Virus record (IMG/VR): IMGVR_UViG_3300031877_000013
Location: 1-20,369 of that record
Length of the DNA: 20,369 nucleotides
Reading direction: 5' to 3' (one strand)
Source: a virus
Shown here one piece after another: positions 2,443 to 19,864 of the stretch (positions are counted from its first letter, which is position 1; every line of letters starts with the position of its first letter). A program made the translations under genes and the position numbers. Under the pieces are notes generated by a model that saw nothing but the letters and a program-made list of their open reading frames with translations, did not search any database and was not told the origin of the DNA.

Positions 2443-2619
2443 ATGATCCCAGAGGGGTTGATAGAGGAGTTAACGCAAATTATTGATGATTTCTATTATG
2501 CCTTTGTGCCTGAAAGGCCCACGGCAGTAGAAGAACGAGATTGGGTGGAACTGCTCATCACCCGCATCGTCCGGGCCATAATGGACGGGGAGATAAAGTT
2601 GCCCGAGGAGGAGAAATGA
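2443..2619 (+). CDS. Small acidic hypothetical protein
   Basis: This 58-aa helical acidic protein begins 'MIPEGLIEELTQIIDDFYYA'. The frame is open back to ATG 2416, but AAGGAG at 2428-2433 lies nine bases before ATG 2443, so the shorter form is chosen. Its stop overlaps the next start as ATGA at 2616-2619, suggesting translational coupling. No known family is recognised. Confidence 0.55.
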   Translation: MIPEGLIEELTQIIDDFYYAFVPERPTAVEERDWVELLITRIVRAIMDGEIKLPEEEK

Positions 2620-3155
2620 ATCTACTCATTGCTGAAGCAGCCCAACAATTTTCGCAATTCTATGAAGTTCGAGAAGAACTCAGATGGAAAATGGCCGATA
2701 CCTGTGCCCTTGTCGAAAGCGAAAGCGGTGGCTTGGCGATGCTGACCGAGGAACTAGAAAATAATTTCGGCATTTCCATAACACTCAATGCCCTCAAGAA
2801 CTACGCTCGTGTTGCAAGGGCCTTCTCGGAAGAGCATCGCCATCTACAGTATAAATTTTCAAATTATCTTGAATGGTCTAGGCACCCCGACCCAGTGAAG
2901 GCTATGGAGGTGGCCCTCGATAATTGCTGGGGCCCTAAGCAGATGCGGAATCTGAGACTTCATGGTTATTCCAACTACAAGGAGGAAAAGATTTGCGAGC
3001 GGTGCGGGAAAGAACTGGGCGAGGGGCTTTTGGTATGTAGGAGGTGTCTGGGCGCCGACTTCGGGGAAGAGAGAGATATGATTGCGGAATATGCCGAGAC
3101 CGCAGATCTCAATCTAGCGCTCGCCGAGCGTGATCCAATCAACAGCAGCGACTGA
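2616..3155 (+). CDS. Hypothetical protein with zinc-ribbon-like C-terminal region
   Basis: This 179-aa protein starts at ATG 2616, behind GAGGAGGAG at 2605-2613. The frame is open further upstream, but no other start has this support. Residues 1-110 look helical. The segment 'FGISITLNALKNYARVARAF' resembles a helix-turn-helix-like arrangement, though this is weak. Near residues 127-143, CERCG and CRRC form a compact zinc-ribbon pair. A DNA-binding or regulatory role is plausible but not shown. It is coupled to the preceding gene by an ATGA overlap. Confidence 0.65.
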   Translation: MNLLIAEAAQQFSQFYEVREELRWKMADTCALVESESGGLAMLTEELENNFGISITLNALKNYARVARAFSEEHRHLQYKFSNYLEWSRHPDPVKAMEVALDNCWGPKQMRNLRLHGYSNYKEEKICERCGKELGEGLLVCRRCLGADFGEERDMIAEYAETADLNLALAERDPINSSD

Positions 3156-3175: not shown

Positions 3176-3535
3176 ATGACAACAACGACGAATGATGATA
3201 TAGATTCTACCTGCCCAGTTAAAGTTGCCTTGCGGAACAAAATACGACAAGGGGGAATGGGCTGGTCGGCGAGCAACAAAAACTGGATAAGAGACTCATA
3301 CAGATTCTTTGGCCATGTTGATCGTTTTCACGAACCACGGTGGAGAACAATGGGCACAGACGAAACGGGAGCCATATTGAAACAAGGGGTGTGCCGATTC
3401 TGCGGGAAAGTTTATCTTCAGCGACATTGTTCCCAGTGCGGGATGGTTCTTGATGGCGAAATTGGATCGACATGTTGGTATTGCAACGAGGAGGAGAATG
3501 AAAGCCAATGGCAAAAGCAAATGAATCCCCCGTGA
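3176..3535 (+). CDS. Cys-rich double zinc-ribbon-like protein
   Basis: This 119-aa protein ends in three closely spaced Cys pairs: CRFCG, CSQCG and CWYC, between about residues 73 and 103. That resembles a double zinc ribbon or rubredoxin-type knuckle array. An extra Cys lies near residue 13. The N-terminal 70 residues contain basic and aromatic residues ('WIRDSYRFFGHVDRFHEPRW') and no recognised fold. The start has only a weak GGGAAG SD. The 3' end overlaps the next gene by 28 bases. Confidence 0.6.
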   Translation: MTTTTNDDIDSTCPVKVALRNKIRQGGMGWSASNKNWIRDSYRFFGHVDRFHEPRWRTMGTDETGAILKQGVCRFCGKVYLQRHCSQCGMVLDGEIGSTCWYCNEEENESQWQKQMNPP

Positions 3536-4176: not shown

Positions 4177-4359
4177 ATGAGACGAAGCAGGGCTGAGCGA
4201 GCATATGATGGGCATAGGCTGGCGATACTATGCAGCATAAGGGCATGGCGGGTTTTCCGGCTAACCGGAAGTATTTTGTGGCTATGGCGAACCGTTTATC
4301 ATGCCCTAGAAAGTGTTGCGTGGCTTATGTGGGCTCTTGTCCTTCGAGGCAGGGATTGA
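4177..4359 (+). CDS. Possible small membrane-associated protein
   Basis: This 60-aa ORF has an Arg-rich start, 'MRRSRAERAYDGHRLAILC', then Trp- and Leu-rich stretches that could form one or two short membrane segments. GAGGAAG at 4166-4172 lies a few bases upstream. Its TGA stop is part of the -35 box of the promoter at 4356. The composition is unusual and the ORF may be fortuitous, but it fills the only space between the previous gene and that promoter. Confidence 0.4.
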   Translation: MRRSRAERAYDGHRLAILCSIRAWRVFRLTGSILWLWRTVYHALESVAWLMWALVLRGRD

Positions 4360-4384
4360 CAAAACATCTCTTTTGGTGTAAAAT
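4356..4384 (+). promoter_or_regulatory. Strong sigma-70 promoter (unit A)
   Basis: TTGACA at 4356-4361 is a perfect -35 box and TAAAAT at 4379-4384 matches the -10 consensus at five of six positions, with an ideal 17-base spacer. Transcription would start near 4391. It is the first clear promoter in the window. It precedes the packaging-gene series but is followed almost at once by a terminator. Confidence 0.8.
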
Positions 4385-4390
4385 GACTAT

Positions 4391-4449
4391 GTAACAGTAG
4401 GTCATTAGACTAACCGCAGCAGGGGTCGAGTGAGGCCCCTGCTTTTATT
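4391..4449 (+). ncRNA. Predicted short terminated leader RNA (unit A)
   Basis: If transcription starts about seven bases after the -10 box and stops at the T-tract, the product is only about 58 nt, with no ORF of note. It contains TAACCGCAG at 4411-4419 leading into the terminator stem. The same nine bases stand in the same place in the second element near 18030. The RNA could be a free small RNA or the terminated form of a leader that is read through when an antitermination factor acts. Its existence is inferred, not observed. Confidence 0.4.
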
Positions 4450-4451
4450 TT
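4419..4451 (+). terminator. Intrinsic terminator (unit A)
   Basis: GCAGGGG (4419-4425) pairs with CCCCTGC (4436-4442) across a ten-base loop, followed by TTTTATTTT (4443-4451). This is a standard rho-independent terminator. It lies between a strong promoter and the first gene of the packaging series, so that gene's SD begins directly after the T-tract. Confidence 0.8.
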
Positions 4452-4463
4452 CGGGAGATTAGC

Positions 4464-4676
4464 GTGTCCTGCAACGGCAATGAGGAGTGCCCGAAACACG
4501 GCAAGCAGTATATGAGAAAAGTGGCAATAATCCCTGGCGGCACAACTAAGGAACAGGTTTGCCGGGGGTGCCACGCCGGGGAGATAGCAGCGGGGCACGA
4601 ATACATAAAGCGTGAAACCTGGCGAGCAAAGGATTCAGGTGGTCGGGGCGTTCGGTTATCAGGAGGGATGGAATAG
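4464..4676 (+). CDS. Small Cys-rich protein, first gene after terminator A
   Basis: This 70-aa protein starts with GTG at 4464 behind GGGAG a few bases downstream of the terminator. Cys residues at 'SCNGNEECPKHG' and 'VCRGCHAGEI' could bind zinc. The C-terminal third is Gly/Arg-rich. It is unrecognised. Its position makes it the first gene expressed upon read-through of terminator A, so a regulatory role is possible (inference). Confidence 0.5.
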   Translation: MSCNGNEECPKHGKQYMRKVAIIPGGTTKEQVCRGCHAGEIAAGHEYIKRETWRAKDSGGRGVRLSGGME

Positions 4677-5233: not shown

Positions 5234-5839
5234 ATGGCCAGGGGCAAGCCCAACGAACCCCGTGATGCTTCCTACTTTTGCGGGGCGAGAAATCGGGCGG
5301 GCAAGCCTTGTCAGCAGAGAGCGGGCTGGGGCACGGGCCATCCACGGATAGGGCGCTGCAAACTACATGGCGGGGCGAGCCCGATAAAACACGGCCTTTA
5401 CTCGAAGGTTGTCCACGAGCAACTCCGGGCGAAGATAGGCATTGCTGAAACAGCGACCCCGATTGACCAGATGATCGAGGCGCTCAATCTTCAGACTGCG
5501 TTGGCGATGGAGTATATCGGGAGGTTTGGCCCAGACATTAAATTGACGGGCAAAGACCTGGGCCTCCTGTCCGATTTACTCGAAAAAATCAGTCGCATAG
5601 GCGAGCGGATTTACAGGGTTAGGCAACTTGAAGCGATGACGATGACCGAAGGATTGGCCCTGATAGAGGAGTTTGGGCGCTTAGCGGAGAAATACCTTGA
5701 TACAGACGAGGCAAGAGAAGCTTTCGCGGCCGATGTCCGAGCGCTCCTTTATAGAATTGGTGGCCGAGAGAGTGAGACCCAAGCCATTGGCCTCGCCCTC
5801 CCGCAGGGAGCGAATCGAGCGGCTGATAATACTCGATAA
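5234..5839 (+). CDS. Putative terminase small subunit-like protein
   Basis: This 201-aa protein has a Cys/His-rich N-terminus, 'CGARNRAGKPCQQRAG', then 'GRCKLHGGASPIKHGLYSK'. The HGG...HGLYSK signature is widespread in phage proteins encoded just before TerL and often annotated as small terminase. The rest is helical and may mediate oligomerisation. Small terminases recognise the packaging site and stimulate the large subunit; that role here rests on position and signature. It begins three bases after the preceding stop and overlaps TerL by 107 bases, which is long for this window. Confidence 0.65.
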   Translation: MARGKPNEPRDASYFCGARNRAGKPCQQRAGWGTGHPRIGRCKLHGGASPIKHGLYSKVVHEQLRAKIGIAETATPIDQMIEALNLQTALAMEYIGRFGPDIKLTGKDLGLLSDLLEKISRIGERIYRVRQLEAMTMTEGLALIEEFGRLAEKYLDTDEAREAFAADVRALLYRIGGRESETQAIGLALPQGANRAADNTR

Positions 5840-7265
5840 AGACGGGGATTATTGCCCCCTAGCATTTTGGCCGGAGCAGGAGAAGATTTACCAACTCGTT
5901 GTGGAGGTGATGGGGTTGCGGGGCGATGCCGACATTCTCAAAGACAGGCGGATAGGAGTTTCCACGTTACTCCTTGCTGTTTTCTATGACGAGGTAAAGA
6001 CCAGGAAAGGCGTCAACGCCCAAGTCATCACCCACCACCCCGACGCCAGTAAAGAGTTCAGGGAGATTATCAAGCGATTCTGGCTGTACGATGAGGACAG
6101 GCCCCTGATTCAGTATGACAACGCAGGCACCTTCTCAGTGAAGGGGCAGGACAGCAGGATATATATAGGGACAGTTGAGTCGAGCGGAGAAGGTCGAGCC
6201 AGAACTATTCACCTTCTGCTCTGTACAGAAGTTGCCCGATGGCCAGAGAGGGAAGCCCAGGAACTTTGGTCTGGCTTTTCCCAGGCAGCCCAGCGGGGGC
6301 TAAGGATTCGGGAAAGCACGCCGCACGGAAGGGGGAATTTCCATCATCGAGAATGGAAAAAGGCCAGAGAAAAACGCCCAGAGAGTTGTTTATTCTTCAG
6401 ATGGTTTGACCATGACGAATACCGGGCAGACTGGCCAGCCCGAAACCTATCGAACAATGACGAAGATATATATGGTAACGAGGTAGCCGTATCCGAGATG
6501 TACGGCCTCGATCTTTACCAATTGGCTTGGCGCAGGGAGATGATAGAGGAATTGGGGAAGGACGGCTTCACCCAGGAATATCCAGAGGACGAAGAGACCT
6601 GCTTCCTTGTAACTGGTGAGACGGTATTTGAGAAGGCCATCCTACTCAAACTACTTCGAGCGACTGAGTACATCCAGCCATTAGAGCAAAGGGAGGAACT
6701 CACCGTGTGGGAGTATCCTACCGAGGGGGAATACTACGTGGCGTTTAGCGACGTGGGGGAAGGTCTCCCTCTGGGAGATCGCTCAGCAACGGTGGTTCTG
6801 CGCTGGAAAACAGGGAGGCAGGTAGCGAGGCTTTGGGGTTGCTTGCCACCAGAGGAGTTTGCAATGAAGAGCGCAGCCCTTTGCACGATGTACAATAACG
6901 CCCTTTGGGGGATCGAAGAGGCAGAGCACGGCAAGACCGTACTCTACATTGTAACCGCCCAATCGCCTTATGCCAACCTCTATTATCGAGACAAGAACAA
7001 GCCAGGCTGGAGAACGGATAGGGGAAGTCGCCCCACGATGCTCGATCAACTAAAAAGGGGTATACGGGAGGGAAGCATTGGCGTCATGGATAAGGACTTC
7101 GTGTTAGAGTGTTTATCCTTTGTGAGGACTGACGCTTACCCCGACGGCGAAGCAGATGCTGGGGCTCACGACGACTTAGTGATGGCAAATGCGGGGGTGT
7201 GGAGGCTGAGGGCTTTGAGTGGCCCACCAAGCCCGATCAAAATTAGGGAACTACTTCCCTCATAG
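5733..7265 (+). CDS. Phage terminase large subunit (TerL)
   Basis: This 510-aa protein is the packaging motor: an N-terminal ATPase drives DNA into the prohead and a C-terminal RNase H-like nuclease cuts the concatemer. 'LKDRRIGVST' (residues 69-78) is a Walker-A variant of the kind common in TerL. 'LLLCTEVARW' holds the Walker-B glutamate, E166. 'STPHGRGNFHHREW' (195-208) is the coupling motif. Nuclease acidic residues are D340 in 'FSDVGEG', E395/E396 in 'GIEEAEHG' and D480/D481 in 'HDDLVMA'. A TTG at 5697 with GGAG at 5686-5689 would add 12 residues and cannot be excluded; ATG 5733 lacks a strong SD. The ATPase-to-nuclease order and length are normal. Confidence 0.92.
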   Translation: MSERSFIELVAERVRPKPLASPSRRERIERLIILDKDGDYCPLAFWPEQEKIYQLVVEVMGLRGDADILKDRRIGVSTLLLAVFYDEVKTRKGVNAQVITHHPDASKEFREIIKRFWLYDEDRPLIQYDNAGTFSVKGQDSRIYIGTVESSGEGRARTIHLLLCTEVARWPEREAQELWSGFSQAAQRGLRIRESTPHGRGNFHHREWKKAREKRPESCLFFRWFDHDEYRADWPARNLSNNDEDIYGNEVAVSEMYGLDLYQLAWRREMIEELGKDGFTQEYPEDEETCFLVTGETVFEKAILLKLLRATEYIQPLEQREELTVWEYPTEGEYYVAFSDVGEGLPLGDRSATVVLRWKTGRQVARLWGCLPPEEFAMKSAALCTMYNNALWGIEEAEHGKTVLYIVTAQSPYANLYYRDKNKPGWRTDRGSRPTMLDQLKRGIREGSIGVMDKDFVLECLSFVRTDAYPDGEADAGAHDDLVMANAGVWRLRALSGPPSPIKIRELLPS

Positions 7266-7275
7266 GAGAAGCTCG

Positions 7276-8976
7276 ATGAAGCCGATATTAGGGTTGGAAG
7301 GAGAGAAACTACTACAGACCATCAGAGACCACGTTGGGATGCGTCGGCAGGTGCAGGCAAGGCTCAAAGAGTTCCTCGACTTGTACGAGAGGCTCTATCT
7401 TCTCAAGCCCAAGAAGGAGCGGCCCCTCGGCCAGATAGAGACTGCCCAAGGCGTAGACGTCATCACCAACGATATATGCAATGCCGTGAATGTCATGGCC
7501 AACCTCCTCAATGCGGCCCAGGTTATCATCTCCACGTTCGCTGCTGAGCCCGGGAAGGAACTGAAGAGCGACAAGGCGGAGATGTTCTACAAGAACGTGC
7601 TTTTCCACACCCGAAAGAAACTGGGGAAGCCCCCGCTAACCCTGGCCCGGATGGATCAGTGCAAGTTCGGTAGGGGATGTCTCTATCCCAACTGGCGGCA
7701 AACAGCAGACTACATCGGGCCAATCCTCGAAAGGATAGATCCCCGCAAGGTCTTGTGGGAGCCAGGTGGCCCTTCTGATGAGTATGCTTCAACTGTCGTG
7801 GTGGAAAAGAGGCCCGTCCCAACGGTCGAGAGCAAGTACAAGGTGAGTCTAGCGGATTATTCGGGCTGGGAAACTGATAAAAAGGCCGAGGCGAAGGTGG
7901 ATGTTTTCGACGTATGGACTTGGGAGGGGATAACGCAAGAGGACAAGGATGGGAACAGGACAGCCAAGGAGGTGGTGGTCAATTGCATCGTTACCGACAA
8001 GACGGTTTTGAAGGAACCCGAAGTTATGGGTGGATACAGCCACCTTCCGGTGATCACCTTTGGAGCCTATCCAACGGGCGAGGAACTCTTGGAGTACGAA
8101 TTCGTGCCTATTTCTTTCTTCATCCACACAGCAGTCCTTTTAGAGAGAAGGTTAAGGACTGCCCAATTCAAGAGATTAGACCAGATGATACGGTTGCCCC
8201 TGGTATTTAAGACGACTAGGCCAGAATATGCCAAAACGGTCTCTGTTGAGGAGGGCCCTTTTGTCATGATACCCCTAACATTGCAGGAAGAGATCACCTT
8301 TCCTGAGTGGAGGGGTTCCCCACCAGATTTAGAAAACCTGGGGCGATTCCTCGATGCCCAAAGGCAGAAAGGCTCATTTTCCGACCTAGCCCTGGGGGAG
8401 ATGCTCGTCATATCTGGAATAGCGGCAAGCCGTTTCTGGGATGTGAATGTCCTAAAGATGGAAGCGCCAGCCGAGCAATACGCTTGGGCGCTTGAGCGTT
8501 GCCTGCATATGTTCAGAGACTTCGCTATCCAGTTCGGGGGCAACGAGAAACTAATTTTGGAGTTAGGCCCTGGGGCGAAAGAAGGGCCGGGGGTCTTCGA
8601 CATACTGGGAAGAGACCTGAAGGGAAGCAAGGTAACGGTGGAAGTAAAAGCGGCCGTGCCGGCGGACATTCGTTATCGGGACAGTATGTTCGGTTTAAGA
8701 CTTCTACAAATGGGGGATAAGTGCCCCTTCCCATTGGCCTATGTGTTGGAGCGATGGTTCCATGAAGACCAGCCAGAGTTATTGTTGGAAGCAAAGCGCA
8801 AAGAGATTGAGGAATACGGTGACATCCTGGGGTTCCTGAAGGGCGAGAAGGAAAGGGAACAAGAACCCAAACCCAGGCCAGTGCTCACAGCCCAGCCAGG
8901 CCGTGAGACGGCTTATCCTGCGGAGGTTCCTTATCCTGAGACCGTGATGCAAGAAGAAGGATATGAGGAGGTGTAA
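7276..8976 (+). CDS. Portal protein
   Basis: This 566-aa protein follows TerL directly and has the length, order and layout of a portal: a helical start, 'ITNDICNAVNVMANLLNAA' near residue 65, a mixed middle with 'CKFGRGCLYPNW', and a long helical region towards the C-terminus. Portals form the dodecameric ring through which TerL pumps DNA. The ATG at 7276 has AGGAG at 7265-7269 and is preferred over an upstream in-frame start at 7219 inside TerL. The tail is Glu/Pro-rich. Identification rests on position and general resemblance rather than a sharp catalytic motif. Confidence 0.8.
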   Translation: MKPILGLEGEKLLQTIRDHVGMRRQVQARLKEFLDLYERLYLLKPKKERPLGQIETAQGVDVITNDICNAVNVMANLLNAAQVIISTFAAEPGKELKSDKAEMFYKNVLFHTRKKLGKPPLTLARMDQCKFGRGCLYPNWRQTADYIGPILERIDPRKVLWEPGGPSDEYASTVVVEKRPVPTVESKYKVSLADYSGWETDKKAEAKVDVFDVWTWEGITQEDKDGNRTAKEVVVNCIVTDKTVLKEPEVMGGYSHLPVITFGAYPTGEELLEYEFVPISFFIHTAVLLERRLRTAQFKRLDQMIRLPLVFKTTRPEYAKTVSVEEGPFVMIPLTLQEEITFPEWRGSPPDLENLGRFLDAQRQKGSFSDLALGEMLVISGIAASRFWDVNVLKMEAPAEQYAWALERCLHMFRDFAIQFGGNEKLILELGPGAKEGPGVFDILGRDLKGSKVTVEVKAAVPADIRYRDSMFGLRLLQMGDKCPFPLAYVLERWFHEDQPELLLEAKRKEIEEYGDILGFLKGEKEREQEPKPRPVLTAQPGRETAYPAEVPYPETVMQEEGYEEV

Positions 8977-10613: not shown

Positions 10614-10642
10614 ATTATAGCATGAATCGAGGAGCCTGTAAA
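10614..10642 (-). promoter_or_regulatory. Reverse-strand promoter for the 71-aa membrane protein
   Basis: Read on the reverse strand, TTTACA (10642-10637) is a five-of-six -35 box and TATAAT (10619-10614) is a perfect -10 box, with a 17-base spacer and TGC immediately before the -10 giving an extended -10. The expected transcript start is near 10607, almost at the ATG. The -35 box overlaps the first base of the giant + strand gene and the spacer covers that gene's SD, so the two expression signals share the same DNA. Confidence 0.75.
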
Positions 10643-13600
10643 TGGCAAGACTACCAAGACTGATCGAAGAAAGACTAGGCAGGCGACCGAGAGAACCACG
10701 CCCTTCTCGCCCGCCGCTACTTGAGCGGGTTCCTGCGCCAACGCTAAAAGTTTCCAGGCCCCGTGTGCCCAGGCCACCAAGAGCCATCGGTCGGGCTGCC
10801 GTAACTAGGGTAAGCCCTATACCCACGCCAGATAGGTTGGCCCGCTTACGAGAAAGGTTGGAGGCACGCAAAGAACGCTTGGTGGAGCGAGAGAGGCTTA
10901 CAAGGGCCGCTATGCCCCGCCCTGTTGCCATATGGAGGGCTGGGGCCGCATTGCCGCAAGCCCCCACCAGACCCCCGGCAATACCTCCTACGCCCCCCCC
11001 GGCCCCCCAACCGATTCCTCGAATACCAGCGATGGAACGTCCCCCAGAGGAAAGAGCGGAGATGGTTCCGCAAGTAAGGGCTAGACCCCCAGTAGCCCCC
11101 TACCCTGCCCTACGACCACCAACCACACAGTTATTAACCCCTGAGCAGCGACAAGCCATAAAAGAAGCGCTGACGATTACTCCAATACAACCAGATATCC
11201 TACGGGCCATAAAAGAAAGGGTGGCAAGGGTGCGGATCCCCACGCCACCGATTCCACAGGAGGAAATAGAGATAACCCGTCCTCCTATTTTTCCAGATCG
11301 CATCCCTGCTGATGTTGGCTTTATTCGTGCCGAGATAGAACGGGCGAGGCCCTACGAACCGCAGATGTCTCCTCAAGAGAAGACGAAGTACGAGAGTCTG
11401 AAACAGAGCCTAACAGAGACAGAAAGGTTAGTGCCTATGCCCCCGATGTTGTTCACTCCAGAGGAAAGAAGAAAGATGGCCGAGCCACCAGTCTTGCCCC
11501 CTGGGGTTGAGCGATTAAAGCCACTAGAGATTGCCAAACGATTTGTCAACTGGTTATCGCCTGGCTATCTGGAGCGAACTAAAATACAGTTGGTCGAACC
11601 CTTGGCTGCCATACCAGAAGCGATCAGGGCAATCCTCCCTGCGCCAACTGCGGTTATGGAAAGCACGGCAATCCCTGGATTTGAACGACACGGAGAAAGC
11701 GTAGCAGAAGAAGTAAGGAATCTTCTGGGGCCTGAAAAGGCCGAGGAATTTGGCCATGCCCCCAGCGAACCCCTTAGCAATCTCGTTCAACGTGCGGGGA
11801 TGGGGGCCTTATATGCTTGGTTCGACATAGTGGGCGGGATATTCAAGCGTGTTGATGACATTAAAAATGCTGCGCTCTCTGTCTTCTTCAGGCAGGTAGA
11901 AAAAACCCCTAATCTTGCTATGCTTTCTTTTGGTCTTCCTGGGACTCAGGGGCCACTATACCCAGCGGGGATTAGGGAAGAACTTTACAGGGGCATGGAA
12001 GAAGAGGGTAAGACCAACCCGCTTCTGAATCAGGAAGAACTCAAATCGGCCATTGACGAGAACGAAATGGTTTGGTCGATGCTAACCCTGGAACCATCCC
12101 TCAAAAAAGATTTGCGGGATAAGGTGGCTTCCGGCGAACTAACGATGGAAGACCTGATGCGGGACTATCGCAACGATAACCTTGAGTTGGCAATGAATCT
12201 AATCACTACCCCTTGGTGGTATATTCCCCTGGGGCCGGCGGGGAAGGTGATGTTTGCCCCTATTACAGTCCCCCTAAGTTTGGCATGGCGAGGATTAAAG
12301 GCAATGCCCGTAATCAACACGCTCGTTGAACTATCCAAGCGAGCCAAGGTTGAACGATATGCTGATGAGGCCGCTAAATTCTGGGAAAGGGCCATGACCC
12401 GAATGCCTGGGTGGGTTGAGCAACAGGCGGATACGGCCTTCTCTGGCGGCACGAAATTTGAACTGGGACAATTTTTTGAAAACGCCAGAATCGCAGCCGA
12501 GAAAGGAGATATCGCCAGGGTACTAGGGGTTACGGACGATGTGGCAGCAAGGCTTCAGGCTTTTATAGAGTTCGCCGAGCGAGGAGGTTTTGACCTTAGT
12601 AGGTTAATGGCTACGGCTGGCACTAAGGACGCCGTCCTTGGTTATATAAAGTGGATTGCCAGACAGGAAAAGGCCGCCGAACTGGGGGTCAACCTGGTCA
12701 GGGATCGACACTTCATGGGCGAGACCATGCAGTTTATGAAAGAGATGTGGCTGTCGACAAGTCCTTCTTGGGGAGCAGTGAACTTTCTGGATAATAGTAC
12801 GAAGTCACTCTCGCACGGCTTTTTCCCACACGGCAACTTCGCCACTAGGTTCGGCAGATTCGGCCTTACTATGCCTGATTATGTGAATCAAACGCTGGCT
12901 ACCGCTGGCATCGGGCTTGAGGCAAGGACAGTAACGGGAAGGTTGGGTATCCCCTTGATAAGCAAGCCCGAGAACTGGATGGGGGGCTACCTCATTGGAG
13001 CCATAGAGAGGTTTGCGGGGAAAGAAGCCACAAAGCCCGTCGTCAAGTTTTTAGGCCCAATAGTTGATTATACCAAGCGCCCTGAACTAAGCGGATTAGG
13101 CCGGGCTATTAAATGGACGCTAGATCACGCTAATCTGGAAAGCCTGGTAATGGCTGGGCGGGCCTTCTGGAATATGGAGTACGCTTTTAGGGCCGAAGGT
13201 GTACTCCACAGGCTAACTGGCATTGTCGAAACCTCAAGGCCACAATTTGCCGATGATGCTTACAAAGCCATTGTAGAGGCGGGTTATCCAGAAGATGTGG
13301 CGATGGGGATTAAAAATGCCCTGTCTTCCCGCCTTGTGAAAAGCCCCGCTGATATAAATCGCATCTTCTCTAGGTTATACCCAGGGGGCAAGCCCCCTGT
13401 CTATGGGTTAACTGATTACCCAATTCAATACTCTGGCAAACTCGCCGGTGTCTTGGAATGGTTGAGCACAAATCTTGCGAGGTTGGAGACATCAGGCAAG
13501 GCCACGACCGAGAGCGTTGAGGCACAATTCGATGATGCGTTAAGGATAGCCCAAAAGACCATCGACGATGTACAGAAAGTCGCCGATGACGAGGTTCCGA

Positions 13601-16600
13601 TCTCCAAAGTATTTACCAACCTGAACGATATTATAGCGGTTCAAAGAGCACGCCACCGAGTTGCTCTGGGGCGAATTGACGAACTGATACACCGAGTAAG
13701 GCAGCGAAACCTTGCGGGCGATCTCCCTGACAAGGCGGTGGATGACTGCGTGAACATTGCCAACAAAGCCATTTACCGGGCCAACAAGATAGTTAGCCAG
13801 GCTTTCAAGAAAACTGACCAAGCCCGCATTGATATGATTGACACCCCCTTAGCCGAGGCACGCAAAGCGCTGCAAGAAGGCAGGATAGATTTGGCCCAGT
13901 ATTCGCTCAGGTACAGCCAGTTAATCAAGTCTTACCTGAATTACTCCCGCCCTTACTGGGACAAAATGAACGATGACTATGTTCGTATGCTTGCGGCGGC
14001 GATGGAAAGGGTTCAGGGGAGAAGTGGCCTATTTACGGAACCGCTATCTATGGAATTGGCCGCCCGAACCGCAAGGCTAGAGACGAATATCCAGGGGATC
14101 AAGGCAGCCTGGCGAGAGCAAATTCTTGGGGAGTGGCTCGATGATGCAAGAAACCTGACGGACGAGATTGCCAAATGGCGAGAATGGGCACTGGCGAAGA
14201 TTGAGGGGGCCATCCCCGAAGAGAGAGTAGCCGAAGCGGTAGCCCCCGAAGTTGCAAGGCCAGCAGAAGGAATCAGCAAGGCTGCTGGCCTTGTCGAGCA
14301 ATTCACAAACCGTTGGCGCGCAATGATAGAAAACGCTAGGGACGAAGGGACAAGGTATTCGGAGGATATTTTCTTCAACTACGGCAACACGATAGAGCTA
14401 GAGGAAAAGATTCGTTGGGCTTTCCCCTTTGTGCATTGGCAGTTGCTTAACCCTTTGTACTGGCTCAAGCACGCCCAGGAGATGCCCTGGATTCCCAATG
14501 CTATCAGACTCTATGAATGGGAAACCGACCAGCACAGATTAAAACGCGGCCTGACCGCTAGGTTCAAATGGACTGTTGAAGCACCCCTTGATGAATGGGT
14601 TCCCTCTTTCTTCCCCGAAGGATATTACGGCACAGACTTCAGGCCATTCATGTCCTTACTTACCCAGGTGGGGTTGTTCACTCCCTATGGCGAACCTTGG
14701 CGCTGGGGCGAAGAAGATGCGGCGGGGAAACTGATACGGGCAAGCGAATGGATTGGAATAACCCCCTATCCCTGGTGGCAAGCGATAGAAGCAAGCGTAA
14801 CAAAAAGAGAAATGCCTGATTTGGGCAGCCTTTTCCCCATTACCAGGGCAGTGCGAGACCTTTTCGACATTGACCTGGGCCACATAACCGAGATTGAGGA
14901 TTACTACGCAAATTTGGAGCTTGCTGCCAGGGTAGCAGATGGCGAGATAGACGAATGGAGGGCCAAGAACGCCATTATGCAGGGTGCGGGCAATCCTGAT
15001 TATGATAGCGCCCTGGACGAAAGCCAGGATATCGCCAAGAAGTTTGACCTAATCAGATTATTTCTCCCGTTCACCATCAAGTACGCCAGCCCCGGCGAAG
15101 AGGCTATCAGGCAGGAGATAATGGAACGAGCGGGGATGCCACGAGCCGAGAGGCCAGAACCATCCCCCGGCCTTAGCACTTACTACTTCATCCGCCTATC
15201 CCCCGAAGATCAGAAACGGGCACTTGCCTACGAATCCTACATCGACCGCATCAACAACATGAATAAATGGCTTTCTGCTCAAGCACAGTTCTATGGCATC
15301 GGGACAAAGAAGTGGCAGGCAATCTCCGACAAATACTGGGAAGACCGAGAGCGCATCGCCAACGAGTACGAAGAGACCGTTACACCCGAGATGACCCAGC
15401 GGATGCGTTGGCTGCTGGCCAACCCACTAGATTCCGCCGTTCGTTCTTATAGGAACATGACCCGTCAATTCTTTGATGAGGAAGGGGACTTGAAGGAGGG
15501 ATATGAATGGGCGGATGTCATCAGCGCTCAAGAGATGTTCAAAAGAGAATTGGTCAGGGGCACGCCAGAAAGAAGGCCCATATCTCTCTTGGCCTTTGAG
15601 CAAGCCCGTCGCAAGTGGGAAATCCCTGAAGAGGCGATGTTTAGAGCCTGGGAGGAACTCTATGCTCGGCCAATATATGAAGTGATAAGCAGTACCCGCG
15701 ATATGGAAGACAGGGATGAGGCGAACGCACTAATTGCCCAGGCAAAAACCATCGCCAACAGCGGGCGGGATAATAAATCTGAACTCATGGCCGAGGTAAT
15801 AAGAATTCATCCCGATTGGACAAGAGCGCAGGTTGCGCGGGCCATAAGTGTTAAACTGCCCGAATGGGATGCCTGGGCAAGGCGGAATGATCCACTCAAG
15901 GATGCGGTTGTGGGGATAATCTGGAATGGATATATGGGCCTGTCAGACTTAGGCAGACGGCAATTCAGACAATTTCTTGAGACTACCCCAGAGATAGACC
16001 CTGCGGTATCTCTCCTTTTCCAAGAGATTATGTTGCCCAGGGAACGGATAGGGGCAGAGGAAACAAAATGGCAGCGAGATCTTGGGTTCATGCCCATTAA
16101 AGCGCTGCTGATAATTGCTGACTATCTTGGTGCTCTTCAGCCCCTGGCCCGTGAAGGCTTTAGGGCGGAGATAGAAGAAGCCGAAAAGGAGTACGAATTA
16201 GGGCCTGGGGCCGAGAGAATCCCCTTGCCCACAGTTGCCCCCCCCACCGAACTTATCACGGGGCCCTTTACACCGATGCCTCAAGGATGGGGCACTGAAA
16301 AATTGGCCGAATACATAAAGGCACTTAAACCAGAGGTGCGGCAGGCATTGTTGGAAGCGATGCCCATGGTGCGCACCGCTCAACCTCAGCCACCAGCGCC
16401 AGGCGAAATAGCAGAGATGCGATATGGCAGGGAACAATTCAGGCCCCCAGCCCCAGAGGAATCCGCAGCCTACGACAAATGGCTGGGAGTGATGACTCAG
16501 TACCAGAATGTGAGAGGCACGAACCCTGAACAGGCCAGGGCTTTCTGGGAGGCTAATGCGGGGGTACTAGAGGATAGACGTTTTTACAGCCCTGGCGCAT

Positions 16601-17292
16601 CTTCGCAGTTCTGGGATTTCTACTATGGTTCCATCCCCCCCGGTAAGATAGCGAGCGAGATCAGGAATGACCCCATAGTAAGCGCTATCGTCAACAGGCA
16701 GACACGAAAGTACCTGAACGATGCGGGGTTTGCGGAAGGCTTGAGGCGGATGCAGGCCTGGGCTGCTGCCCATCCAGAAATAGTCTCCATCGGGAATTCC
16801 CAAGAATGGGTGCGGGTGAGGGAGATTGTAGCCCAATGGAGCGACCTGAGAGATGCAGGCAGGGAGGATGAGGCAAGAGCCCTCTGGAATCAATATGGAG
16901 ACCTGCTTGGCAAATACTATGGCGGGGGGGCACGCAGGAGATTTCCGCCCGCCGGCGTGAGGCCGAGACGGTTCGGAGGTGGCGGGGGTAGGTGGGTGGC
17001 AAGAGCGCCTACTGGCGGGGAGATTCAAACCTTCTTTAATCGGGTCATACCACCCTTGCTACAAGAGAGTCTGGCCAACTACTGGACGACTGGAGCAGAG
17101 TTATCCGCTGCCGATTTAGCAGCCCTTCGCACGCTCTACGAGCGGAGCCCAATGGGGGCAGCGACTTTTGAGCAATGGTTGAACCTGCTACGGCAGATGT
17201 GGCAATCATCGATGTCCGCCTATGTCTATAGGCCCAGGTTGCCATATGCGTATCTACAGCGGGTTCCTATGGCCTATAGAGGACGTGGTTGA
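10642..17292 (+). CDS. Giant multi-region virion-associated protein, 2216 aa
   Basis: This single 6.65-kb gene covers a third of the window; CGAGGAG at 10628-10634 supports the start. Residues 1-240 are Arg/Pro-rich and probably disordered. A long, mostly helical body follows. 'STSPSWGAVNFLDN' (near 704) and 'LEEKIRWAFPFVHWQLLNP' (near 1253-1271) resemble segments I associate with very large virion-associated phage proteins, but the family is unnamed. Residues about 950-1150 are highly helical. From about 2000 there are two similar EARAxW-like units, then a Gly/Arg linker near 2092-2120 and a helical end. Lying between portal and scaffold rather than downstream of the capsid gene, it is unlikely to be an ordinary tape measure. 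An internal or ejected protein is the best guess. Confidence 0.8.
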   Translation: MARLPRLIEERLGRRPREPRPSRPPLLERVPAPTLKVSRPRVPRPPRAIGRAAVTRVSPIPTPDRLARLRERLEARKERLVERERLTRAAMPRPVAIWRAGAALPQAPTRPPAIPPTPPPAPQPIPRIPAMERPPEERAEMVPQVRARPPVAPYPALRPPTTQLLTPEQRQAIKEALTITPIQPDILRAIKERVARVRIPTPPIPQEEIEITRPPIFPDRIPADVGFIRAEIERARPYEPQMSPQEKTKYESLKQSLTETERLVPMPPMLFTPEERRKMAEPPVLPPGVERLKPLEIAKRFVNWLSPGYLERTKIQLVEPLAAIPEAIRAILPAPTAVMESTAIPGFERHGESVAEEVRNLLGPEKAEEFGHAPSEPLSNLVQRAGMGALYAWFDIVGGIFKRVDDIKNAALSVFFRQVEKTPNLAMLSFGLPGTQGPLYPAGIREELYRGMEEEGKTNPLLNQEELKSAIDENEMVWSMLTLEPSLKKDLRDKVASGELTMEDLMRDYRNDNLELAMNLITTPWWYIPLGPAGKVMFAPITVPLSLAWRGLKAMPVINTLVELSKRAKVERYADEAAKFWERAMTRMPGWVEQQADTAFSGGTKFELGQFFENARIAAEKGDIARVLGVTDDVAARLQAFIEFAERGGFDLSRLMATAGTKDAVLGYIKWIARQEKAAELGVNLVRDRHFMGETMQFMKEMWLSTSPSWGAVNFLDNSTKSLSHGFFPHGNFATRFGRFGLTMPDYVNQTLATAGIGLEARTVTGRLGIPLISKPENWMGGYLIGAIERFAGKEATKPVVKFLGPIVDYTKRPELSGLGRAIKWTLDHANLESLVMAGRAFWNMEYAFRAEGVLHRLTGIVETSRPQFADDAYKAIVEAGYPEDVAMGIKNALSSRLVKSPADINRIFSRLYPGGKPPVYGLTDYPIQYSGKLAGVLEWLSTNLARLETSGKATTESVEAQFDDALRIAQKTIDDVQKVADDEVPISKVFTNLNDIIAVQRARHRVALGRIDELIHRVRQRNLAGDLPDKAVDDCVNIANKAIYRANKIVSQAFKKTDQARIDMIDTPLAEARKALQEGRIDLAQYSLRYSQLIKSYLNYSRPYWDKMNDDYVRMLAAAMERVQGRSGLFTEPLSMELAARTARLETNIQGIKAAWREQILGEWLDDARNLTDEIAKWREWALAKIEGAIPEERVAEAVAPEVARPAEGISKAAGLVEQFTNRWRAMIENARDEGTRYSEDIFFNYGNTIELEEKIRWAFPFVHWQLLNPLYWLKHAQEMPWIPNAIRLYEWETDQHRLKRGLTARFKWTVEAPLDEWVPSFFPEGYYGTDFRPFMSLLTQVGLFTPYGEPWRWGEEDAAGKLIRASEWIGITPYPWWQAIEASVTKREMPDLGSLFPITRAVRDLFDIDLGHITEIEDYYANLELAARVADGEIDEWRAKNAIMQGAGNPDYDSALDESQDIAKKFDLIRLFLPFTIKYASPGEEAIRQEIMERAGMPRAERPEPSPGLSTYYFIRLSPEDQKRALAYESYIDRINNMNKWLSAQAQFYGIGTKKWQAISDKYWEDRERIANEYEETVTPEMTQRMRWLLANPLDSAVRSYRNMTRQFFDEEGDLKEGYEWADVISAQEMFKRELVRGTPERRPISLLAFEQARRKWEIPEEAMFRAWEELYARPIYEVISSTRDMEDRDEANALIAQAKTIANSGRDNKSELMAEVIRIHPDWTRAQVARAISVKLPEWDAWARRNDPLKDAVVGIIWNGYMGLSDLGRRQFRQFLETTPEIDPAVSLLFQEIMLPRERIGAEETKWQRDLGFMPIKALLIIADYLGALQPLAREGFRAEIEEAEKEYELGPGAERIPLPTVAPPTELITGPFTPMPQGWGTEKLAEYIKALKPEVRQALLEAMPMVRTAQPQPPAPGEIAEMRYGREQFRPPAPEESAAYDKWLGVMTQYQNVRGTNPEQARAFWEANAGVLEDRRFYSPGASSQFWDFYYGSIPPGKIASEIRNDPIVSAIVNRQTRKYLNDAGFAEGLRRMQAWAAAHPEIVSIGNSQEWVRVREIVAQWSDLRDAGREDEARALWNQYGDLLGKYYGGGARRRFPPAGVRPRRFGGGGGRWVARAPTGGEIQTFFNRVIPPLLQESLANYWTTGAELSAADLAALRTLYERSPMGAATFEQWLNLLRQMWQSSMSAYVYRPRLPYAYLQRVPMAYRGRG

Positions 17293-17328: not shown

Positions 17329-17970
17329 ATGAAGTGCATCGGTGGTAGTCCTAGCAAGCGCAGGCGGACATTGCCCGAAACTCGCAAGAAAATAAGCGAG
17401 GCTTTACGGGGTAGAAAATTCTCTGCCGAACATCGAGAAAAGATGAGCGAGGCTTTACGGGGTAGAAAACTCTCTGCTGAACATCGAGAAAAGATGAGCG
17501 AGGCCCACAAAGGCAAGAAGTTGTCCACAGAGCATCGGCGAAAGATAAGCGAGGCTCATAGAGGCAAGAAGTTCTCAGCAGAGCATCGGAGAAAATTGAG
17601 CAAAGCCAAGCAGGGCCACAAAATCTCACCGGAAAACCGTCAAAAGATAAGGGCAGCCTGGGAAAGCAAACGCAAGCGAGGCGACATAAGGCGGGGCCAC
17701 ATGGCCACCTACTGGAAAGGGGGACGTTCTAATCGGGGAGGTTATGTCATAGTCTTGAAGCCTGGTCATCCCGGTGGTGATGCTCAAGGTTATGTATACG
17801 AGCAACGGCTGGTTATGGAAAAACATCTTGGTCGCCTTCTCGGTTTGAGGGAAGTGGTACACCACATCAATGGAAATAGAGTAGACAATCGGATTGAAAA
17901 CCTCATGCTTTTCCCATCCTTTGTAGAGCATCTTGCCTATCATAGAGAGCAACGTAAAAAGTTGACATGA
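17329..17970 (+). CDS. NUMOD3-repeat HNH homing-type endonuclease
   Basis: This 213-aa protein has five tandem 17-residue basic repeats at about residues 23-107 (SEALRGRKFSAEHREKM type), which match NUMOD3 DNA-binding motifs of homing endonucleases. An HNH domain follows: 'REVVHHINGNRVDNRIENL' (174-192) with H178, H179, N187 and N191, and a final 'EHLAYH'. Such enzymes cut a specific site in genomes lacking the gene and spread it by repair. It is free-standing in the gap between the giant gene and the scaffold gene and no intron is evident. It has no SD; a promoter places the transcript start on the ATG. Its end overlaps the promoter of the capsid unit. Confidence 0.9.
   Translation: MKCIGGSPSKRRRTLPETRKKISEALRGRKFSAEHREKMSEALRGRKLSAEHREKMSEAHKGKKLSTEHRRKISEAHRGKKFSAEHRRKLSKAKQGHKISPENRQKIRAAWESKRKRGDIRRGHMATYWKGGRSNRGGYVIVLKPGHPGGDAQGYVYEQRLVMEKHLGRLLGLREVVHHINGNRVDNRIENLMLFPSFVEHLAYHREQRKKLT
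17395..17649 (+). repeat. Five tandem 51-bp coding repeats (NUMOD3 units)
   Basis: Units run 17395-17445, 17446-17496, 17497-17547, 17548-17598 and 17599-17649. Units 1 and 2 differ at only two of 51 bases, while later units are more divergent. All stay in frame and each gives one 17-residue DNA-binding motif. Near-identity of the first two suggests a recent duplication. Confidence 0.9.
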
Positions 17971-17990
17971 TCTGAGTCCTGTGATATAAT
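17962..17990 (+). promoter_or_regulatory. Perfect-consensus sigma-70 promoter (unit B)
   Basis: TTGACA at 17962-17967 and TATAAT at 17985-17990 are both perfect, separated by 17 bases, with TGA before the -10 adding an extended -10. The -35 box encodes the last two residues (Leu-Thr) of the endonuclease. The expected start is near 17997. It is the strongest promoter-like sequence in the window and lies in front of the scaffold and capsid genes. Confidence 0.88.
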
Positions 17991-17996
17991 ATGCTT

Positions 17997-18073
17997 GAGA
18001 CAACGGAATAGATCGACGATTTCGGGCAGTAACCGCAGAAGGGCTGTGCGATAAGCGCGGCCCTTTTTTATTT
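17997..18073 (+). ncRNA. Predicted short terminated leader RNA (unit B)
   Basis: Between the expected start and the terminator is a leader of about 75 nt without a gene. It contains TAACCGCAG at 18030-18038, identical to the box at 4411-4419 and likewise directly before the terminator stem. It may be a small RNA or an antitermination/attenuation leader. The transcript is inferred. Confidence 0.4.
18039..18073 (+). terminator. Intrinsic terminator (unit B)
   Basis: GGGCTGTGC (18041-18049) pairs with GCGCGGCCC (18055-18063) over a five-base GATAA loop. There are nine pairs including two G-U, plus flanking A-T pairs, followed by TTTTTTATTT. It also ends transcription of the endonuclease gene. 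The scaffold gene's SD starts about ten bases later. Confidence 0.88.
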
Positions 18074-18093: not shown

Positions 18094-18852
18094 GTGGCAA
18101 AAGAAAAGACCGGAGTTGGATCTAAGGAACCGGGACAGCCTACAGGGACAGCAGTTTCACCTGGGACAGGCGTTCAGGCAGGAGTTCCACCGAAGGAGCC
18201 GACAGCCGAGTTCGATTTCAAAAGCGTGCCCCCAGAAGCCTGGAAATCAGGCAAATGGTACGAGCACGTGCCATCGGAGGCTGTCAACCTCGACAAATTC
18301 CCGCAGTTCGGCAAGTTCAAATCGGAGCGAGATAAGTCTGAGGCTACGCTTCGCAAAGAGATGGCCGACCTACAGGCGCAGGTACAGCAACTAGAGCAAA
18401 TGATCGAGTATCAGGAACTCGAAGGGCTGAAGCCTGAAGAGCGGGAGGGCTACGAACTCCAGAAACTCCGTGAGGAGCGGGCCAAGTCCCAGCAAGACAG
18501 AGAGATTGAGGCTGCCTGGGATGCTGCCTGGGAACAAGTCTGTGATCAGCGGGACGGCTTGGCGGAAATCTTTGGCTTAGAAGACCCAGAGAAACTCGAA
18601 ATCAACGTAGAACTCTTCTACAAAGACCCGAACCTCGCAATTGCGGATTTGAGGAAGCAGGCAAAAGAGATAGCCGAGGAGATAGCAACACCGACTACCC
18701 CACCTCCCCTTACCGAGTCCCATGCTGGGGGTGCGCCCAGCGGCGGGCTCATTGAAGAAGTGGCGGGCAAGCCTCCAAGGGAGCGCCAGAGGATATATTC
18801 CTCTCACAAGCAGGTGAAACGGCTCTTAGAAGAGGCTGGTTCCCGCAAGTAA
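18094..18852 (+). CDS. Putative capsid scaffold protein
   Basis: This 252-aa protein lies directly before the major capsid gene and has scaffold-like composition: a Gly/Pro/Thr-rich N-terminus, a charged coiled-coil candidate at about residues 70-140 ('MADLQAQVQQLEQMIEYQEL' and following), another helix near 170-205, a Pro/Gly linker, and a basic C-terminal helix ('HKQVKRLLEEAG'), as many scaffolds use to bind the capsid protein. Scaffolds direct prohead assembly and are then released. GTG 18094 follows CAGGAGGT with good spacing. No sequence family was matched; the call is by position and architecture. Confidence 0.75.
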   Translation: MAKEKTGVGSKEPGQPTGTAVSPGTGVQAGVPPKEPTAEFDFKSVPPEAWKSGKWYEHVPSEAVNLDKFPQFGKFKSERDKSEATLRKEMADLQAQVQQLEQMIEYQELEGLKPEEREGYELQKLREERAKSQQDREIEAAWDAAWEQVCDQRDGLAEIFGLEDPEKLEINVELFYKDPNLAIADLRKQAKEIAEEIATPTTPPPLTESHAGGAPSGGLIEEVAGKPPRERQRIYSSHKQVKRLLEEAGSRK

Positions 18853-18874: not shown

Positions 18875-19864
18875 ATGAAAGTGCTATCGGAACTTACCGC
18901 AGCACAACACACCGAGGTAAGAAAGGCTGCCCTACTTGCAGGGTTTGGTAGATTAGCCTTTGGGCGATTTGGTGAGCAAGGCGAGTTAACCGAGAAGGGC
19001 GGGAATGTCTATCGTATGTGGCGTATCCCGGCCTTCACTGTCCCCGCTACCCCCGTCGAATTAGCGGGTGGCGAGACCCCCGCAGAGACCGCTTACACCC
19101 TTTCCTACGTAGATATCACGCCCAAGTGGTACGGAGCCTTCTCCTGGATACCTACCGAGGTCAAGGTGCAATCCATCCTAGACTTGGTAAGCCGACTGGG
19201 TATCAATTTCGGCATCTACATGGCCGAATTGGTCGAGACGCTGACGAAGAACGTGGTTACGGTGGGCACGACCGTGCAGTATGCGAGCACGGCGACCGCA
19301 CGGAACCAGATTACCAATGCCATGCCCCTCAGCACCGCAGAGGTTATCGAGGCTGTTACGACCTTGGAGGAGAACAAGGCACAGGGCTACCCCAATGCAG
19401 CGATGCGGAAAATCTGCATCATACATCCCCGTCAGAAAGCAGACCTTCAGAAAGATTCCGACTTCAAAAACTCCCTCCTGTATGCTAAGGAGCGAGGCGA
19501 TGACAACCCGATCTTTGACGGTCTTCTGGCTGACTACCTGGGTGTGCGGTTCTTCGTGAGCGACTTTGCTCCGAAGTACGCTGGTGAGGGGGCTGGTTCG
19601 GCCAACGTCTACGGCGCATTGATGATCGGCTATCAAGCCTATGGCCTGGGTGGTGTCTCTGGGTACATGATTGACCAAATGGAAGGTGGAACGGAGAACG
19701 AGGATGAGGTCAAGAATGCCGTGAAACTCATCACGAAGAGTGAGGAGCAAATCGGCGGGCCTCTGGATGTCAAGGGTTCCATTGGCACAAAGTGCACGCA
19801 CGGATCGGTCATCTGTATCCAGACGTGGATGGTGCGGATCGAGACCGGATCGTCTCTAGGCTAA
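18875..19864 (+). CDS. Major capsid protein, N4-gp56-like
   Basis: This 329-aa protein has the features I associate with the N4-gp56 major capsid family (HK97 fold): a helical N-terminus, 'TPKWYGAFSWIPTEVKVQS' near residues 88-106, a spine-helix region, 'IIHPRQKADLQKDSDFKN' near 188-205, and 'LGVRFFVSDFAPKYAGEG' followed by 'VYGALMIGYQAYGLGG'. It forms the icosahedral shell. GGAGG lies a few bases before ATG 18875. Neighbours on both sides fit: scaffold before, decoration-like after. Strong promoter B and a good SD agree with high late expression. Confidence 0.88.
   Translation: MKVLSELTAAQHTEVRKAALLAGFGRLAFGRFGEQGELTEKGGNVYRMWRIPAFTVPATPVELAGGETPAETAYTLSYVDITPKWYGAFSWIPTEVKVQSILDLVSRLGINFGIYMAELVETLTKNVVTVGTTVQYASTATARNQITNAMPLSTAEVIEAVTTLEENKAQGYPNAAMRKICIIHPRQKADLQKDSDFKNSLLYAKERGDDNPIFDGLLADYLGVRFFVSDFAPKYAGEGAGSANVYGALMIGYQAYGLGGVSGYMIDQMEGGTENEDEVKNAVKLITKSEEQIGGPLDVKGSIGTKCTHGSVICIQTWMVRIETGSSLG

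Follow-up and report, generated by a model that had tools for sequence, protein, structure and literature searches.

What role could a near-consensus promoter play if a full intrinsic terminator follows it almost at once, directly upstream of phage packaging genes? The question arises from a viral fragment of 20,369 bases (IMGVR_UViG_3300031877_000013), the whole of which we analyzed and refer to as the window. It contains two such promoter-terminator units (Table 1), which we consider likely to be late attenuators.

Two promoter-terminator units precede the late genes

Unit 1 precedes a small open reading frame heading the packaging genes, for whose product a family match was sought and none was found; unit 2 precedes the scaffold and capsid genes. 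The small terminase, portal and scaffold assignments are probable ones, drawn from weak PHROG matches together with gene order. Two HNH proteins are encoded in the window. The one at 17329-17970, an HNH endonuclease carrying NUMOD3 repeats, ends with its stop codon at the unit 2 -35 hexamer and is probably a homing endonuclease set just before the capsid operon. Between the portal region and the capsid gene lies a gene for a 2216 aa protein (10642-17292), possibly an ejection protein, for which Pfam and PHROGs gave no significant match.

A consensus scan of the window returned 15 promoter-like and 23 terminator-like sites, both totals being close to the level found in shuffled sequence. Among the 15, the two units supply the best pair of + strand promoters, the only near-consensus ones on that strand, and their terminators are the two best of the 23. 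Under a stricter scan the + strand retains only two strong terminators, one 33 nt and the other about 46 nt past the -10 of a strong promoter, so placed that the expected transcript before the terminator is about 27 nt in unit 1 and about 40 nt in unit 2. Elsewhere in viral DNA, a terminator within 110 nt of a promoter matching at least 11/12 consensus positions was found in 0/56 and 6/379 cases, a rough yardstick because these comparison loci were gathered by promoter patterns. The pairing of best promoter with best terminator, twice over, is not at chance level, as the generic site counts are, but above it.

A preliminary description of the locus had reported a TTGACA-17-TAAAAT promoter with a prompt, full terminator at 4356-4451, and re-reading of the sequence bears this out, the promoter being among the top + strand sites. 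Its predicted short transcript of ~58 nt is close to the ~60 nt that we expect from a start near 4391 and this terminator. The start region of unit 1 is in addition spanned by an inverted repeat, a possible operator.

Table 1. Positions of the features discussed in the text (window coordinates unless a locus is named)
Feature	Position	Strand	Remarks
Unit 1 sigma-70 promoter, TTGACA-17-TAAAAT	4356-4384	+	11/12 consensus; start expected near 4391
Unit 1 inverted repeat, AATGAC-N13-GTCATT	4382-4406	+	Spans start region; absent from unit 2; putative operator
Unit 1 box, TAACCGCAG	4411-4419	+	Last two bases form the foot of the terminator stem
Unit 1 intrinsic terminator	4418-4451 (hairpin 4418-4443)	+	10 bp stem, then TTTTATTTT; about -20 kcal/mol
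First gene after unit 1	4464-4676	+	70 aa, Cys/His-rich; GTG start
Probable terminase small subunit	5234-5839	+	Weak phrog_509 match (E 0.003); precedes large subunit
Terminase large subunit	5697-7265	+	Protein matches
Probable portal protein	7219-8976	+	Weak phrog_332 match; comes after terminase
Unit 2 sigma-70 promoter, TTGACA-17-TATAAT with TGn	17962-17990	+	12/12 consensus; start expected near 17997
Unit 2 box, TAACCGCAG	18030-18038	+	Register to stem as in unit 1
Unit 2 intrinsic terminator	18037-18073 (hairpin 18037-18067)	+	T-tract following a 13 bp stem; about -21 to -22 kcal/mol
Probable scaffolding protein, first gene after unit 2	18094-18852	+	GTG start; weak phrog_172 match; precedes capsid gene
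Major capsid protein	18875-19864	+	phrog_1357, E 3e-27
Promoter with immediate terminator before holin/terminase	L291 455-545; L292 9034-9165; L305 8873-9130
GAAC-N4-GTNC (GTAC in one) between -35 and -10	L292 9045; L293 358; L295 160; L296 8472; L297 755; L304 16273; L305 8884 and 9073

A nine-base box in register with both terminator stems

As had been noted earlier, the same box stands before the stem in each unit: TAACCGCAG is identical in the two, with its final AG already within the stem, and the common stretch runs on into the stem as TAACCGCAGNAGGG, matching at 13/14 positions. Apart from the box, the leaders and hairpin sequences differ, and between -35 and -10 and through the start region the units share no run of at least five bases, the run length covered by the comparison; this agrees with the earlier view that only promoter, box and terminator are held in common.

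In dinucleotide shuffles, a common run of at least nine bases has a probability of 0.0067 anywhere and of 0.0007 in register with the stem. A second null, built from 353 real terminators, gave 31 of 61,696 pairs (~5e-4) with nine or more G+C-balanced bases in common and in register. Many of these 31 pairs proved to be tRNA arms (T-arm), T-boxes and ZTP riboswitches, and because so many are true RNA motifs, the register test picks out functional elements. A third exact TAACCGCAG (11648-11656, minus strand) lies within coding sequence, with neither promoter nor terminator, and is expected by chance. Use of TAACCGCAGNAGGG as a promoter for a phage RNA polymerase was considered and rejected, as there are just two perfect copies and near-matches occur at chance level.

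The box test rests on a single pair because there are only two copies, and TAACCGCAG is, on that one pair, probably meaningful. It could instead be a chance match between two independent attenuators that have no common factor, an outcome expected in ~1 in 1500 to 1 in 150 cases, the figure varying with the strictness of the register requirement. Against this, the registers agree and the sequence is G+C-balanced, and such matches are rare among real terminators and often true RNA motifs; we regard a chance box as rather unlikely. The computation gives us the anatomy of the units, the coupling of promoter to terminator and the register of the box.

Comparison with known antitermination and leader systems

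The preliminary description had likened the arrangement to an antitermination site of the lambda pR'/tR' type. Attenuator anatomy with a constitutive-looking promoter, present twice before late genes, upholds that likeness, whereas membership of the Q, AlpA or GafZ systems is not upheld, since the -35/-10 spacers have no sequence in common and the scanned proteins matched no antiterminator family known to us. As a whole, the earlier observation is confirmed and its interpretation partly supported.

Lambdoid Q systems (pR'/tR'; 21Q and lambda Q) also combine a promoter, a short leader, an intrinsic terminator and late genes for which read-through is needed. However, the QBE at which Q loads lies between -35 and -10 and is accompanied by a -10-like pause element (PMC6606751); units 1 and 2 have no run of five or more bases in common in that spacer and no clear common pause element, and there are two units here rather than one. 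The best candidates for a pause element are TAGACT (4/6) in unit 1 and a 3/6 match in unit 2. AlpA of Pseudomonas aeruginosa is a single protein that serves two operons, with a terminator beginning 26 bp past the PA0807 start site (PMC7969949), compared with ~27 and ~40 here; the AlpA element, GGGACG, sits between -35 and -10 (PMC7969949, PMC9371919), whereas the element shared by our units is at the terminator base. GafZ, from the Caulobacter gene transfer agent, resembles the present case in antiterminating a phage-like structural gene cluster, but its element, a palindrome, occupies the -35/-10 spacer and its terminator is located after the first gene (PMC11150451). The trait of these systems that both units possess is a promoter and then an intrinsic terminator ahead of regulated genes. 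Because a shared -35/-10 element was tested for and not found, we do not file the units as members of the Q, AlpA or GafZ systems; they may work in a similar way. Pfam and PHROGs searches of the scanned window proteins returned no known antiterminator family, Q included, from this 20 kb fragment, and such families are diverse.

A factor of the Q, AlpA or GafZ kind might still load at the promoter, the shared box being coincidental or merely an aid to termination. Architecture and gene position fit lambda pR'/tR', PA0807 and the Caulobacter GTA cluster, and recognition elements are short and may go unnoticed when just two promoters are compared. With no common run of five or more bases in the spacers, no clear common pause element and no scanned protein that matched a known Q family, we think promoter loading unlikely.

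In cellular operons with RNA-binding antiterminator or T-box leaders, read-through is decided by a conserved leader sequence at the base of the terminator hairpin. Those leaders differ from the present ones in being longer and in having a stable alternative hairpin, none of which is evident in units 1 and 2. Rfam gave no match above gathering score over the window, the best overlapping one being BjrC68 at 21.2 bits, below its cut-off of 39. Identity as T-boxes was rejected, given the short leader and the lack of an Rfam match.

Two proteins with Cys-rich, zinc-ribbon-like stretches are encoded ~1 kb before unit 1 (2619-3155 and 3176-3535), near the position occupied by lambdoid Q. They are candidates for an antitermination factor; AlphaFold models of both had pLDDT values of 45 and 54, too poor for structure search.

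The terminators might also be leaky and work without any factor, either setting the level of late transcription or guarding against other transcription. Intrinsic terminators are rarely complete, and no factor was found in the scanned window proteins. However, both stems are long and G+C-rich with full T-tracts, a strong promoter right before a strong terminator would be wasteful unless regulated, and the in-register box is left unexplained. We judge this account distinctly unlikely. The earlier suggestion of two small RNAs with a common seed, the terminators simply ending them, is weak and highly improbable: the transcript is short and the box mostly outside the hairpin, but within the window the box has a single + strand complement, located in coding sequence ~1 kb from the start of that sequence and without extended pairing, no translation start in the window offered a target, and both units directly precede late genes.

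Relatives and further copies

Relatives were sought by their large terminase, portal and capsid proteins. The only close one, L007, is 99.9% identical across 13.6 kb and is without unit 2. Comparable strong units were found neither in terminase relatives at ~30% (L016-L018, MW202692, MW202801) nor in the capsid relative Palmer, where a terminator precedes the small terminase gene and the promoter scores 9/12 only. The portal protein had no match in 84,980 species genomes.

The preliminary description had proposed looking in phage contigs for promoter, box and hairpin with T-tract. That search recovered the box unit in L007; viral and bacterial collections gave no further promoter-box-terminator unit among the matches listed. 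For the promoter and box pattern, viral matches apart from L007 had no convincing terminator behind the box, and the genome matches listed were a mixture that included operators, hairpins with the box as an arm, and ZTP riboswitches, the last identity being backed by Rfam for three. Box, hairpin and T-tract occurred together across viral contigs in L007 only, a scan of viral DNA for the core AACCGC gave no box-like unit among the matches listed, and a DNA similarity search of both units against phages returned chance matches only.

The AACCGC scan led to L217/L291, in which a 12/12 promoter and a terminator precede genes for a small membrane protein and terminase. Terminase relatives of L291 include L292, with a unit followed by holin and terminase genes, and L305, with two units; the terminases of all three belong to a different group from that of the window. 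These units resemble units 1 and 2 in having a promoter of at least 10/12, a leader and a terminator, then (holin and) terminase genes. They differ in lacking TAACCGCAG, and in the L292 and L305 units a LexA-like motif, GAAC-N4-GTNC or similar, is present. Across 160 kb of L291-group loci, a terminator lies within 110 nt in 4/16 promoters of at least 10/12, all before packaging genes, a tally from which L291 should be discounted because it was found through such a unit. Since L291, L292 and L305 all have it ahead of their packaging genes, the promoter-terminator architecture is a recurring one.

The spacer motif of L292 and L305 was also considered as a Q-like element and is better read as a LexA-like site; we take it to resemble the Gram-positive LexA (SOS) site. 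Promoters with GAAC-N4-GTNC occur across a set of uncultured phages, where most of them precede packaging genes, and the motif suggests that late genes of this group may be directly SOS-controlled.

Two other kinds of unit were met in the scans. Eight loci from Lacrimispora, Hungatella, Clostridium and MAGs (L020, L033, L043, L069, L082, L105, L108, L132) share a conserved unit with the promoter inside an inverted repeat, a short leader ending in TTTTGTAACCGCAGTA or similar, a hairpin CCGCAGTA...TACTGCGG and, in some, a T-tract; there was no Rfam match in the three tested. In low-GC viral contigs (L001, L003, L005, L008, L011, L013), TTGACA-17-TATAAT is followed directly by GGGGG...CCCCCTTTTT, a hairpin that resembles a terminator and lies where transcription is expected to start.

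A model for late-gene control

We propose that units 1 and 2 attenuate the late operons until a trans-acting antiterminator, with TAACCGCAG as its candidate site, opens them, a model that we think has an even chance of being right. In it we infer where transcription starts and stops, a need for read-through, the existence and identity of a factor and the role of the box. Host RNA polymerase would initiate at both promoters and normally halt at the terminators, leaving RNAs of ~60 nt (unit 1) and ~77 nt (unit 2). In both units the end of the terminator is 12-21 nt from the next start codon, too short a gap for another promoter, and the consensus scan placed no + strand promoter-like site between either terminator and its late genes; barring unrecognized promoters, late expression should for this reason need read-through. 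Transcripts for the packaging or scaffold-capsid genes would thus have to cross the terminators, and the late genes would come on only after antitermination. Polymerase arriving from unit 1 would be stopped by the unit 2 terminator as well.

The factor, a phage protein or RNA, would recognize TAACCGCAG as RNA or DNA just ahead of the hairpin. A single common factor is likely because the box occupies one register in both units while leaders and hairpins otherwise differ, and this arrangement suggests that one switch frees both structural gene groups. The new element would be a terminator-proximal box common to two late operons. We advance only tentatively, with doubt outweighing confidence, the broader idea that specificity in phage late antitermination can come from a nine-base box at the hairpin base rather than from the promoter, with one factor acting on packaging and capsid operons. 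If true, terminator-proximal recognition would be a different route to a terminator-resistant polymerase than that taken by the promoter-loaded Q, AlpA and GafZ. Even if the box is incidental, promoter-terminator units recur before the packaging genes of uncultured phages, and late control by attenuation may therefore be common beyond the lambdoid phages.
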